NCBI GenBank assembly: GCA_902364975.1
Contig: CABJFQ010000024.1
Span: forward strand, 1 to 10,930
Reading direction: 5' to 3'
DNA length: 10,930 nt
From: Coriobacteriaceae bacterium
Lineage (GTDB): Bacteria; Actinomycetota; Coriobacteriia; Coriobacteriales; Coriobacteriaceae
Below the pieces are notes generated by a model. The model had not been told where the DNA came from. It searched no databases and saw only the letters and a list, made by a program, of their open reading frames with translations. The translations under genes were made by a program, and so were the position numbers. Positions 5,992 to 9,582 of the stretch are shown here, in pieces (position 1 is the stretch's first letter; every line of letters begins with the position of its first letter).

Positions 5992-6993
5992 ATGGATACA
6001 CTGCTCGAGGCCATTGACGTCTGCGACGTCGATGGCTTTTGCTATGGCAACTATACGGACGAGGAGGCCGGCACCGGTTGCACCGTAATCGTGGCACCCG
6101 AGGGCGCCACCGGCGGCGTTGACGTTCGCGGCGGTGCTCCAGCATCGCGCGAAACCGACCTGCTGCGTCCCGAGAACACCGTCGACAAGGTCCACGCCGT
6201 CTGCCTTTCGGGCGGATCGGCCTTTGGTCTGGAGGCTGCAAGCGGCGTCGCCCGCGAGCTCGAGAGCCGCGGCATCGGCCTTCCCGTCGGCCCCACGCAG
6301 GTGCCTATCGTGTGCTCCAGCTGCATCTTCGACCTCGCCTTTGGCGATCCCACCGTGCGCCCCGACATAGAGGCCGGCATCGCCGCCGTGCGCGAGGCAC
6401 TCGACAACACCCCCACCACGCTCGAACAGGGCAATGTGGGCGCCGGCACCGGCGCTACCGTAGGTAAGCTCATGGGTCCCGCCACCTGCATGAAGGCCGG
6501 CCTTGGCGCTGCTGCCGTGGCGCTCGGCCCTGTCAAGGTGGGCGCTGTGGTCTCGGTCAACGCCTGCGGCAACGTCGTCGACCCGACCACGGGCGAGTGG
6601 GTAGCCGGCATGCGCGCCGCAGCCGATAGCGACCAGATCGTCGACATGGAGCTCGCCGCTTTTGCCGCCGCCGGCTCTATGCAGATGCCGCTCGACCGCA
6701 CCAACACCACTATCAGCTGCATCGTCACCAACGTTGAGCTCACCAAGGCTCAGGCCACCAAGGTCTCCCAGATGGCCGCAGACGCCTATGCACACGCCAT
6801 CCGTCCCACGCACACCACGAACGACGGCGACACCATCTACACCCTCGCCAGCGGCAAGCTAGACGCTCAGACAAGCGCCACCGTTCCCCTAGACCTACTG
6901 GGCATGCTCGCCGTAAGGGCCCTACAGACCGCCATCGTAAACGGAGCCAAAACCGCCAAAACCTCCCACGGCATCCCCGGCGCCGCAAAGTAG
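5992..6993 (+). CDS. P1 family (DmpA/BapA-like) peptidase
   Basis: The 333 residues match the P1 (former S58) family of N-terminal nucleophile aminopeptidases, which process themselves into two chains. Visible blocks are GTGCTVIVAPEGATGGVDVRG (28-48), TVDKVHAVCLSGGSAFGLEA (63-82), NVGAGTGATVGK (148-159), VGAVVSVNACGNVVDP (183-198), and DRTNTTISCIVTN (235-247). In this family the chain is cut before the Ser/Thr of the NTT or NS motif, so the predicted cut is before Thr239, which becomes the nucleophile. A C-terminal TTNDGDTIYTLASG (275-288) matches the usual GDT(I/V)F block. No signal peptide is seen, so the enzyme is likely cytoplasmic. The substrate is unknown; relatives cleave D- or beta-aminopeptides. 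AGGAG (5981-5985) lies six bases before the ATG. Confidence 0.92.
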   Translation: MDTLLEAIDVCDVDGFCYGNYTDEEAGTGCTVIVAPEGATGGVDVRGGAPASRETDLLRPENTVDKVHAVCLSGGSAFGLEAASGVARELESRGIGLPVGPTQVPIVCSSCIFDLAFGDPTVRPDIEAGIAAVREALDNTPTTLEQGNVGAGTGATVGKLMGPATCMKAGLGAAAVALGPVKVGAVVSVNACGNVVDPTTGEWVAGMRAAADSDQIVDMELAAFAAAGSMQMPLDRTNTTISCIVTNVELTKAQATKVSQMAADAYAHAIRPTHTTNDGDTIYTLASGKLDAQTSATVPLDLLGMLAVRALQTAIVNGAKTAKTSHGIPGAAK

Positions 6994-7005
6994 CCTAACC
7001 TGACC

Positions 7006-7130
7006 GGTTGCCCGGTGGGGCTTGGTTATGTTTGCTGCTCTACAGTCCTGGCTCGCACGAAGCGCACATTAAGTGCTCTTCGGCTCGTGCGGAACTCGCG
7101 ACAAACATAACCAAGCTCCACCGGGCAACC
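7006..7130 (-). repeat. Long hairpin element 1 with conserved core
   Basis: The arms 7006-7034 and 7102-7130 form a 29-base inverted repeat with a single difference, which in RNA is a G-U pair, so the whole helix pairs. Read on the minus strand, the core begins three bases inside the arm with CGAGTTCCGCACG (7098 down to 7086). It continues into an apical stem, CGCACGA with TCGTGCG and then GCAC with GTGC around ATTAA on the other strand, and closes with CAGGACTGT (7050 down to 7042) and seven more bases before the second arm. The same two core blocks recur in the element at 7225-7333. No T-tract follows on either strand and no target-site duplication is seen. Confidence 0.8.
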
Positions 7131-7163
7131 TACTCAACAAGATCCCTTTCAGCCCAGGCCCCT

Positions 7164-7208
7164 GTGTACCGCGCGTCCAAGATCTTCAAATTCAGCCGTC
7201 TGACATAA
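7164..7208 (+). pseudogene. C-terminal relic of a glycosyltransferase
   Basis: The plus-strand frame from 7164 reads VYRASKIFKFSRLT then TAA (7206-7208). The neighbouring minus-strand glycosyltransferase ends LYRLASKIFKFN. The match is codon for codon apart from one missing Leu codon, with 16 identical bases, AAGATCTTCAAATTCA (7179-7194, inverted at 7361-7376), and synonymous differences around them. Upstream of 7164 the similarity stops. The likely meaning is the tail of a second, otherwise lost, glycosyltransferase gene that once pointed toward the element at 7225-7333. Confidence 0.5.
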
Positions 7209-7224
7209 AGCGAGACATAGCAGA

Positions 7225-7333
7225 GGACCCCTGGTCCTTAACTTGATACGAGTTCCGCACGCAAAGGAGGCGCCAGTGGCGCCTCCGTCTTGCGCAGGAC
7301 TGTTCGAAGTAGCAAGTTAAGGACCAGGGGTCC
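7225..7333 (+). repeat. Long hairpin element 2 with conserved core
   Basis: The arms 7225-7245 and 7313-7333 are a perfect 21-bp inverted repeat unrelated in sequence to the arms of element 1. On the plus strand the core begins three bases inside the arm with CGAGTTCCGCACG (7249-7261). It continues through CGCAA/TTGCG (7260-7264 with 7290-7294) and a perfect 9-bp apical stem with an AGT loop (7266-7286), then closes with CAGGACTGT (7295-7303) and nine more bases before the second arm. AGTTCC (7251-7256) can pair with GGACT (7297-7301). It ends 22 bases from the stop codon of the convergent glycosyltransferase, so it may also act as a bidirectional terminator. Confidence 0.8.
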
Positions 7334-7355: not shown

Positions 7356-8387
7356 CTAGTTGAATTTGAAGATCTTTGAGGCAAGACGGTATAGGCCGAG
7401 TGTGGTTTTGTCTCCGGCACGACCGCGGAGGTTAGTGAAGAAGCCGACCACACCGTAACGTGCACGACGATACATACGCTCGTCATAGGCCTTCAAATCA
7501 TTCCACAGCGTCTTCAGGCGCTCATCGGCACAATCTTCCTCGGAAAGCTTGGTGAGCACCGAGCAAATCGCCATCATCATGGTGAAGTAGCCCATCATGT
7601 ACGAACGCAGACGCGAGGACTCAACGTCCTGGTACAGGTGGAACGATTCCATCATGATGCGCGTTACGCGGAACTGCTGACCCAGGCGCTTGACCATCGT
7701 GGCCTCATTGACGCTCTGGCCCTCGCGACCGATAAAGTAGCGATAGAGGTCGATGTCGGCGTAGTACATGGTCTTGCAGCGCGGCAGCGGCACGTATGCG
7801 TAGATATTATCCACGTAGAACGTGTGTGCCGGCATAGGCAGATTGGACTCACGCAGCACATCGGTGCGATAGCACAGGCTGTGCATAAGCAGGTTCTGAT
7901 CGGGACGGAAGTGTCCGATCTGGTCCCAAGAGAAAATCTTTTTGCGCGGCAGGGCAAACTTGTAGCCAATAGCGGTATGCGTGCCCTCGTAAACCTTCTC
8001 GTACACGTAGTTCGAGATAAACAGGTCGACGCGCTGGTCGCGCTCCTCAAAGCCACGCAGAATCGACAGCATGGTCGAAAGCGCCGCACCGTCGAGCCAG
8101 TCGTCCGAGTCAACGACCTTATAGTACGTACCATGCGCCTCACGCAGGCCCGAGAGGACGGCGATACCGTGGCCGCCATTCTCCTGGTGCACCGCGCGGA
8201 TGATTCCAGGATAACGGGCCTCCCACTCGTCGGCCTTGGCGGCCGTCTCGTCCTTGGAGCCGTCGTCCACCACGATAATCTCGATATCGGTGGCGTAATT
8301 GCTCCCCTCCAAGATGGAGGTGATGCAATGGTCCATGTCCTTGGCGGCGTTATATGAGGGAATACCGAATGTTATGACTTTATGCAT
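7356..8387 (-). CDS. Family 2 glycosyltransferase
   Basis: The 343-residue protein has a GT-A fold of the GT2 family: KVITFGIPSYNAAKDM at the N terminus, IIVVDDGSKDET with the nucleotide-binding Asp residues (37-48), NGGHGIAVLSGLREAHGTYYKVVDSDDWLD with the metal-binding DSDD (70-99), YVDNIYAY with a possible catalytic Asp193 (191-198), and YRYFIGREGQSV (215-226). It transfers a sugar from a nucleotide donor, presumably in a surface polysaccharide; acceptor and sugar are unknown. No membrane segment is evident. The start at 8387 is preferred because the GT2 domain begins there; an ATG at 8405 would add six residues. The start overlaps the last codons of glf by eight bases and lacks a clear ribosome binding site, so translational coupling is likely. 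Galactofuranose as donor is a guess from the neighbour. Confidence 0.9.
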   Translation of the reverse strand: MHKVITFGIPSYNAAKDMDHCITSILEGSNYATDIEIIVVDDGSKDETAAKADEWEARYPGIIRAVHQENGGHGIAVLSGLREAHGTYYKVVDSDDWLDGAALSTMLSILRGFEERDQRVDLFISNYVYEKVYEGTHTAIGYKFALPRKKIFSWDQIGHFRPDQNLLMHSLCYRTDVLRESNLPMPAHTFYVDNIYAYVPLPRCKTMYYADIDLYRYFIGREGQSVNEATMVKRLGQQFRVTRIMMESFHLYQDVESSRLRSYMMGYFTMMMAICSVLTKLSEEDCADERLKTLWNDLKAYDERMYRRARYGVVGFFTNLRGRAGDKTTLGLYRLASKIFKFN

Positions 8388-9582
8388 GGCAGGCGATAAT
8401 CTCATCCGAAAGATCGAGGGCAGAATTGGTCACGGCGTCCATATCGTAGTAACGATACTCGGCCAGACGACCCACCGGGTGGAAGTTCGTCAGGTTCTGG
8501 ACGCGCTCAAGGTAGCGCTCATAGAGCTCACGGTTCTCGGGCTCCAGAATAGCGTAGTACGGCGTCTCGCCCGAGCCGGGCGTATAGGCCTTGGAGTACT
8601 CCTTCATGATGGTGGTCTTGCCGGGCAGGACCTGACCAGTCATGTTCTTGAACTCGGTGATGCGCGTATAGTCCTCGCTCGTGGTGTAGTTGACGGTGCC
8701 CACGGGCTGGAACTGGTCCATATCGAGCGTCTCGAACTTCATATCGAGCGTGCGGTACGGCAGCGCGCCCAGGTCGAGGTTGAATAGCTCGTCGAGCGGA
8801 CCGGTGTAGACGATCTCGCCGCCATAGACCTTGCCGTCGATCTTGACGGTGGTCTCGTCGATTTCAAAGAGGTCACGGGCGTCTACGTCACAGAATACGT
8901 CGATCAGATCGTGATCGAGCATATGCTCGAACAGCGCGGTATAGCCGTCCTGCGGCATGCCCTGGAAAGGAGCCTGCGGGAAGTAGCGATCGTCATCGCC
9001 CACAAAGACGGGAACGCGGCCGGTGATCGAGGGGTCGATCTGGTCGGGCGTCTGGCCCCACTGCTTCATGGTGTAATGCAAAAAGACGTTCTCATAGACA
9101 TAATCGGCGACCTCGGCAAGATCCGGGTCGTTCTTCTTGCGCAGCTCCATAATGGGCACCTTGACGTCCTTGCCAAAGGTCTCCACGAGCTTTTGGTACA
9201 GCTCCTCGCCGCGCTCATCGCCAAAGGCGAGCTTGAGGCTCGCATGGTTAAAGGGTACGGGCATGAGGGTGCCGTTGATGTTGGCGAGCACCTTGTGCTG
9301 GTAGTCCGTCCACTTGGTAAAGCGCGACAGGAAGTTATGGACGCGCTCATTAAAAGTGTGATAGATGTGCGGACCGTACTCGTGGACCAGGATTCCGGCC
9401 TCGTCAGTGCAGTCGTAGGCATTACCCGCGATGTGGCCGCGACGCTCCAAAACGGCAACACGATAGCCGATAGTTTCGGCAAGACGGCGGGCGCAAACGG
9501 CACCGGCATAACCGGCGCCGACAACGATCATGTCGTACGCACCGGCATTAAAGCCTTCAGGCAGGCCTGAGGTAATCTGCAT
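8380..9582 (-). CDS. glf: UDP-galactopyranose mutase
   Basis: This flavoenzyme interconverts UDP-galactopyranose and UDP-galactofuranose, the donor for galactofuranose in surface glycans. The 400 residues show an FAD-binding Rossmann motif YDMIVVGAGYAGAVCARRLA (16-35), VLERRGHIAGNAYD (44-57), the family block HEYGPHIYHTFN (67-78), VPFNHASLKLAF (109-120), the substrate-site region FLHYTMKQWG (167-176) and RVPVFVGDDDRYFP (189-202), and the C-terminal FHPVGRLAEYRYYDMD (367-382), which contacts the flavin. The length is typical (about 370-400), with a short N-terminal extension. AAGGAG (9588-9593, minus) lies five bases before the ATG. It is first in a two-gene unit with the glycosyltransferase. 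Confidence 0.96.
   Translation of the reverse strand: MQITSGLPEGFNAGAYDMIVVGAGYAGAVCARRLAETIGYRVAVLERRGHIAGNAYDCTDEAGILVHEYGPHIYHTFNERVHNFLSRFTKWTDYQHKVLANINGTLMPVPFNHASLKLAFGDERGEELYQKLVETFGKDVKVPIMELRKKNDPDLAEVADYVYENVFLHYTMKQWGQTPDQIDPSITGRVPVFVGDDDRYFPQAPFQGMPQDGYTALFEHMLDHDLIDVFCDVDARDLFEIDETTVKIDGKVYGGEIVYTGPLDELFNLDLGALPYRTLDMKFETLDMDQFQPVGTVNYTTSEDYTRITEFKNMTGQVLPGKTTIMKEYSKAYTPGSGETPYYAILEPENRELYERYLERVQNLTNFHPVGRLAEYRYYDMDAVTNSALDLSDEIIACHA

Follow-up and report, generated by a model that had tools for sequence, protein, structure and literature searches.

A family of dispersed hairpins with a fixed core and site-specific arms at gene borders of Coriobacteriia, also met in MAGs of distant phyla

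Two hairpins lying between the 3' ends of two convergent genes in a Coriobacteriaceae bacterium were confirmed as members of a large dispersed hairpin family in which the central sequence is fixed and the outer arms are site-specific. This fixed-core family is real and widespread, and apparently undescribed. The window, that is, the whole stretch of DNA analysed (10,930 nucleotides, contig CABJFQ010000024.1), carries the two elements, E1 and E2, with their neighbouring genes at the following places:

5992..6993, plus strand: peptidase family S58 gene (PF03576)
7006..7130, minus strand: E1, whole hairpin element
7102-7130 (left) and 7006-7034 (right), minus strand: E1 arms in element orientation, 29 positions
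7095-7043, minus strand: E1 core, GTTCCGCAC..AGGACTG
within the E1 core, minus strand: E1 apical module, GAGCCG..CGTGCGAGC
7225..7333, plus strand: E2, whole hairpin element
7225-7245 and 7313-7333, plus strand: E2 arms, 21 bp, all perfect
7252-7302, plus strand: E2 core
within the E2 core, plus strand: E2 apical module, GCAAAG..GTCTTGCGC
7356..8405, minus strand: family 2 glycosyltransferase gene (PF00535)

E1 and E2 were built on the same plan, just as the sequence-only reading had described it: a first arm ending in TTG and a second beginning in CAA, a three-base gap, CGAGTTCCGCACG, a variable apical hairpin, CAGGACTGT, and a linker of 7 or 9 bases ending in AG. The single mismatch in the arms of E1 is A.C on the minus (core) strand, which corresponds to G.U on the plus strand. 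The right arm of E1 is separated by 12 nt from the stop codon of the S58 gene, and that of E2 by 22 nt from the stop codon of the glycosyltransferase gene. Folding of the four strands of E1 and E2 gave z-scores of -9.2 to -11.2, none of 200 shuffles being equally stable for any of them, and the core pattern occurred twice in the window (mean of 0.00 in shuffled sequence). Between the two elements, positions 7146-7195 (plus strand) contained an inverted copy of the 3' end of the glycosyltransferase gene (7356-7377, minus strand); one plus-strand frame gives PVYRASKIFKF, similar to the glycosyltransferase C-terminus YRLASKIFKFN. This inverted copy was well conserved across the 21 whole orthologous loci, and several of its changes look synonymous.

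The two-strand core of the family reads AGTTCCGCA..(apical hairpin)..AGGACTGYYYGAG, with the core end TAGAGC in many copies of the Collinsella aerofaciens type. The site-specific arm is outermost; inward of it follow a helix of 2-3 bp, one or two mismatches, an asymmetric loop in which (G)A faces TGTYYGA (TGTAGA in many C. aerofaciens-type copies), a GTTCC/GGAC helix with a bulge, a GCA/GA loop and the variable apical hairpin. Among the collected loci, arms were complementary (arm score of at least 9) at 318 of 342 distinct core matches, many of which are orthologues, vs. 5 of 342 with permuted right flanks. In the pooled set of these 318 elements, mostly from Coriobacteriia and a few from other phyla, 7790 of 8274 arm positions were Watson-Crick pairs, arm lengths were mostly 15-50 bp, and the arms of different sites were unrelated in sequence; the left outer border often fell between A and G (A in 59%, the next base G in 79%). 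Apical loops had three bases in 171 elements, five in 123 and four in 19. A single-stranded DNA reading drawn from GNA triloops was only suggestive and was set aside, since loop classes vary by lineage and tetraloops also occur (19/318).

Pairing was retained through sequence change. In 51 distinct aligned rows, two-sided changes in paired cells numbered 469 vs. 154.7 in shuffled data, and the covariation score was 0.608 vs. 0.174, with none of 500 shuffles reaching either the score or the cell count. Pairs with a double change (26 vs. 23.2 shuffled; 15 of 500 shuffles reached this number) and pair types (71 vs. 71.0; 296 of 500) were not distinctive in these rows. The C-stem was invariant in the alignment because the search pattern had fixed it; variants keeping at least one C-stem pair by double change were AGTTCTGCAG..GAAGC(C)TG and AGTTTCGCAG..CGAGAATG, and the apical closing pair switched from G-C to A-T in some copies. 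The internal loop was also considered as a kink-turn (three-nt bulge plus tandem G.A); this candidate was rejected, as the bulge exceeds three nt and 16 of 39 short-form copies read CAGTT, so that the supposed tandem would lack its first G.

The core pattern was present in 33 of 58 relatives, comprising 30 of 35 genomes of the same genus, where a conserved motif with many genomic copies had been expected, and 3 of 23 others; 14 of the 35 same-genus genomes carried 22-26 copies each, and the reversed pattern matched once in all 58. The covariance-model search of Coriobacteriia that had been proposed (52 copies, E ≤ 0.01, at most 12 candidates scored per genome) matched 161 of 296 genomes and 55 of 125 genera, a genome count that includes weaker matches; the core or a close variant was found in all 36 matches inspected, and palindromes on the wrong strand score up to 45 bits with this model. 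Matches ranged from 1 to 53 per genome in 24 genomes picked because the model matched. Within the phylum of the window, 14 of 26 genomes of its class had the core, as did 1 of 270 others, and listed records with the core include the names Collinsella, Adlercreutzia, Gordonibacter and relatives.

A scan of GTDB r220 contigs returned at least 119 stretches with the core. Among the 80 matches listed, 11 were labelled outside Actinomycetota (Hydrogenedentota 3, Omnitrophota 3, Bdellovibrio/Bdellovibrionota 2, and Myxococcales, Singulisphaera and Lachnospiraceae 1 each), all of them from MAGs, for which a binning error is possible. Copies per MAG were 33 in Hydrogenedentota, 2, 3 and 4 in Omnitrophota, 2 and 4 in Bdellovibrionota, 5 in Myxococcales, 1 in Singulisphaera and 7 in Lachnospiraceae; the reversed pattern had no match in any of the 12 genomes searched. 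The arm score reached at least 9 at 28 of 36 distinct sites outside Coriobacteriia and was below it at 8. Occurrence within these phyla was patchy: the core appeared in none of 59 Hydrogenedentota genomes other than the MAG with 33 copies, and in 9 of 145 Omnitrophota genomes, two of them known beforehand, at 1 to 11 copies each. The Hydrogenedentota copies are the exception to the rule of unrelated arms; four of them (L122, L126, L185, L358) have similar arms with A-run/T-run ends and related flanks, which looks as if whole units had recently been duplicated. A viral link was discarded, as the exact core pattern had no match in IMG/VR viral contigs and a short-form copy none in phage records. 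Plasmid records gave 12 partial matches, none spanning 80% of the query, and the three inspected are without the core.

The absence of an Rfam family, also anticipated from the sequence, was upheld: cmscan of Rfam 15 at gathering gave nothing in the window, and no family reached threshold at the element in the window plus 21 other loci. At 20 loci scanned in this way, the matches were three tRNAs and one L31 leader, none of them at the element. Under relaxed settings, the window element and six loci (five among the 20) produced only matches far below cut-off, and those overlapping the element, two in the window scan and mir-629 in L101, are chance-like. Skipping-rope RNA, for which Rfam has a family, resembles the element in carrying a fixed internal loop between variable stems, as had been suggested from the sequence; neither the window element nor 20 further loci, however, gave a match at gathering. 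MITE, ERIC and NEMIS-type repeats are long intergenic inverted repeats with conserved ends; the element resembles them as a long intergenic inverted repeat but differs in that its ends vary and its centre is kept. Conserved terminal inverted repeats were not found, the arms being unrelated between sites, and the earlier argument against an end-conserved MITE was sound.

In the literature, as far as titles and the openings of abstracts mainly tell, nothing was recognised as a fixed-core hairpin motif, and among the matches listed all occurrences of core strings came via AGTTCCGCAG and none via the GAGGACTGT strings. REP/BIME sequences with RAYT are likewise dispersed, multi-copy intergenic palindromes near stop codons. 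REPs, however, are short palindromes marked at one end by a conserved GTAG or CGTC tag (PMC3733652, where the terms searched for had zero counts), whereas the element conserves its centre, has longer arms and shows variable ends with only a weak boundary, A next to GG..CC, and no REP-type end tag; several element-rich genomes, besides, have no Y1 transposase match. The Collinsella-1 RNA motif (RF01700) is also reported from Actinobacteria and the human gut (PMC2864571), but the window gave no cmscan match.

Elements were located at gene borders. The context of 261 elements was convergent in 77, with both neighbours antisense to the core strand in 64, both sense in 43 and divergent in 23; the remaining 54 were called inside an ORF, by crude calls taken as mostly false ORFs. 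Convergent sites made up 77 of the 207 elements not called inside, or 27 of 91 by site cluster. Mapping of the copies to gene 3' ends supported the location proposed earlier: the right arm lay about 15 nt from the gene end, with medians of 15-19 nt to the stop where that gene is antisense (17 nt for the 54 site clusters of this kind) vs. 50-70 nt to a sense gene, and the left arm was farther from its neighbour (class medians of 92-227 nt). The abutting gene was antisense in 54 and sense in 37 site clusters, a modest excess, and the antisense bias at tandem sites was not significant (27 vs. 19 site clusters, p = 0.30). Outside Coriobacteriia, the 30 sites classified among 36 comprised 17 with both neighbours antisense, 5 both sense, 4 convergent and 4 divergent.

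Pairs of elements within 600 bp were tail-out (-,+) in 29 cases, 13 of them accounted for by the window locus with its orthologues (further orthologues may be present among the remaining 16), and tail-in (+,-) in none; there were two (-,-) pairs, one being a self-overlap, and one (+,+). The neighbouring genes scanned encode varied enzymes. Flanking ORFs had relatives at other loci in 35 cases and across phylum labels in 24, and the only shared flanking gene family across phyla that stood out was a Bdellovibrionota transposase. An intrinsic bidirectional terminator, suggested from the sequence, was not supported: among 318 elements, TTTT occurred at the right-arm end in 5 and AAAA ahead of the left arm in 7, so that the U-tract after a GC-rich hairpin is practically missing. 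The arms of the Hydrogenedentota copies themselves carry A/T runs. The core was on the lagging strand in 55 and on the leading strand in 31 of 86 copies with listed places in six genomes (10 and 13, respectively, in genome G015); a replication-strand bias was rejected, since it is confounded with gene orientation and assumes ter opposite dnaA.

Mismatches in the arms differed between strands near the core. In core-proximal arms (positions 0-11, leaving out positions 2 and 3, as position 2 alone has 48 A.C and was taken as internal loop), G.T on the core strand appeared in 122 of 318 elements and A.C in 15; by site cluster (n = 141), 72 had G.T only, 6 A.C only and 7 both. In the 64 elements with both neighbours opposite to the core strand, G.T occupied 36 positions vs. 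2 for A.C. In distal arms (at least 12 bp from the core) G.T and A.C numbered 50 and 44, with no strand preference. In the close group of the window (67 elements from G015, the best Collinsella matches and the window-locus orthologues), proximal G.T occurred in one element and A.C in three; the polarity stems mainly from genera other than those of the close relatives. Provided that the inference from polarity holds, the constraint would act on the core strand in single-stranded form, either as RNA or as DNA. The earlier proposal of a structured RNA was only partly supported: RNA-like signs were confined to the surroundings of the core, mainly outside the close relatives, and lay on the strand to which the abutting gene often runs antisense.

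Among 43 genomes of the genus, the window locus was whole in 21 (L237-L257) and split over two contigs in one, and only parts of its genes were matched in 21. E1 and at least part of E2 were present at all 21 whole loci, each element in two haplotypes, which for E1 concern arm and core. In L251, E1 is a recombinant with arms from different haplotypes and has lost pairing; L257 has lost the apical module; and in the E2 core of L253 an inverted copy of one half stands in place of the other, as fold-back template switching would be expected to produce. These three variants indicate that events at the DNA level can both restore and break the pairing of the arms. The similar numbers of G.U and A.C in distal arms, together with the replacement in L253, suggest that fold-back copying of DNA can keep arms paired, and the claim that arm covariation alone is a signature of structured RNA was thus overstated.

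At the thrC-thrB junction, thrB was matched in 26 of 27 genomes and located in 25. Inspection by eye showed nine genomes with the element in sense and one, L417, with it reversed; in L422 it may be degraded, in L411, L415 and L406 core-less palindromes take its place, and 11 genomes are without it. The palindromes at L411:1374 and L415:1444, where relatives carry the element, are long and of GGGACGTACCC and GGGTCAGACCC types. A second, related hairpin family, ATTCCGCAG-(hairpin)-CGAGGAC, was seen near thrB (L400:2403, L061:2526, L404:1397 and others), directly between long arms and without the outer asymmetric loop. In L404, L407, L408 and L410, an extra repeated hairpin, CCCCAGAG..CGCTGG, occurred upstream of the element in the same intergenic region.

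We tentatively read the element as a polar boundary that keeps transcription out of the abutting gene. Transcription arriving from the left-arm side, whether it is antisense or has read through out of a convergent or an upstream gene, would produce the core strand as RNA; this RNA would fold into the core structure and halt or destabilise the transcript before the gene at the right arm, with a putative trans-acting factor taking part, which would make the element an insulator or polar boundary. Applied to the window, the S58 gene would be protected by E1 from the transcript of the glycosyltransferase gene, and the glycosyltransferase gene by E2 from that of the S58 gene; distal arms would stay near-perfect largely through DNA-level fold-back copying. 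Both the transcription block and a partner of the core are what we infer. Consistent with such a boundary are the core-proximal excess of G.T, also where both neighbours run opposite, the right arm close to a stop codon with the left arm farther away, the tail-out pairs, the convergent sites and the fold-back event in L253. The reading is held less likely because the strand polarity is missing in the close relatives of the window; the only mismatch of E1, moreover, is A.C on the core strand. Further points against it are the many elements between tandem genes, where the core strand needs antisense transcription, the weak antisense-neighbour bias by site cluster, the crude ORF calls, the missing U-tract, which argues against an intrinsic terminator, the reversed element in L417 and a patchy spread that would also fit a functionless mobile parasite. 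The wider proposal of a horizontally scattered, previously undescribed class of polar RNA elements that would halt or destroy transcripts without a U-tract, through a putative core-recognising factor or by themselves, and whose stems would be rebuilt by fold-back copying, is unlikely.

The main rival to the polar boundary, and a somewhat unlikely one, is a REP-like mobile DNA hairpin, non-autonomous and moved by a putative single-stranded DNA transposase, whose position at gene borders would reflect tolerated sites. The patchy multi-copy spread between phyla, the turnover with reversal of orientation at thrC-thrB within a genus and the many apical triloops (171/318) agree with mobility, and in the Bdellovibrionota MAG G590 all four exact copies (L352, L363, L370 and L376) adjoin Y1/RAYT-type transposase genes (ORFs of 187-194 codons), some relatives of which are named RayT by JGI. 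However, only 4 of the 7 RAYTs listed in G590 had the core nearby, the 35 RAYT loci examined elsewhere in its phylum all had no core in their vicinity, and Y1 loci of other genomes were without the core. Of 16 genomes, 9 gave no Y1_Tnp (PF01797) match at E ≤ 1e-5, six of these bearing the element (G087, G122, G118, G585, G588 and G593); this cut-off may miss divergent relatives, given the weak E-values of the G590 proteins (9e-7 to 2e-5), and G087 and G588 had zero candidates even at first look. Directly beside elements, Y1_Tnp was seen in G590 only. A general dependence on RAYT was rejected on these grounds; mobilisation by RAYT is possible in one lineage but lacks general support. The variable ends, unlike those of REPs, and the stability of the window locus across 21 genomes also speak against this alternative.

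It is quite unlikely that the element serves the mRNA 3' end of the abutting gene, the reverse-complement hairpin after the stop codon stabilising or ending that mRNA. The short distance of the right arm from the antisense stop codon, the 17 of 30 sites outside Coriobacteriia with both neighbours antisense, the tail-out pairs, which supply each convergent gene with its own element, and the mismatch of E1, which is G.U on the reverse-complement strand, would suit such a role. The frequent G.U pairs would nevertheless turn into A.C in that RNA (the 36 vs. 2 positions given above), no U-tract exists in either direction, and the gene downstream is in sense at 37 of 91 site clusters.

A neutral structural relic, without function and with arms perfect only through replication template switching, is very unlikely: the fold-back product in L253, the balance of G.U and A.C in distal arms, the unpaired recombinant arms in L251 and the apical deletion in L257 would all fit it, but a core common to several phyla, a strand-specific G.U excess near that core and variants with a compensated core pair speak against it.

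The element inverts the usual design of a repeat, its centre being fixed and its ends free, and it is abundant in gut bacteria, with the same core in distant phyla and without an Rfam match. For the study of structured RNA it brings a caution, namely that perfect arm covariation can originate from DNA copying. For the family itself, a directly testable prediction on strand polarity at transcription boundaries follows.
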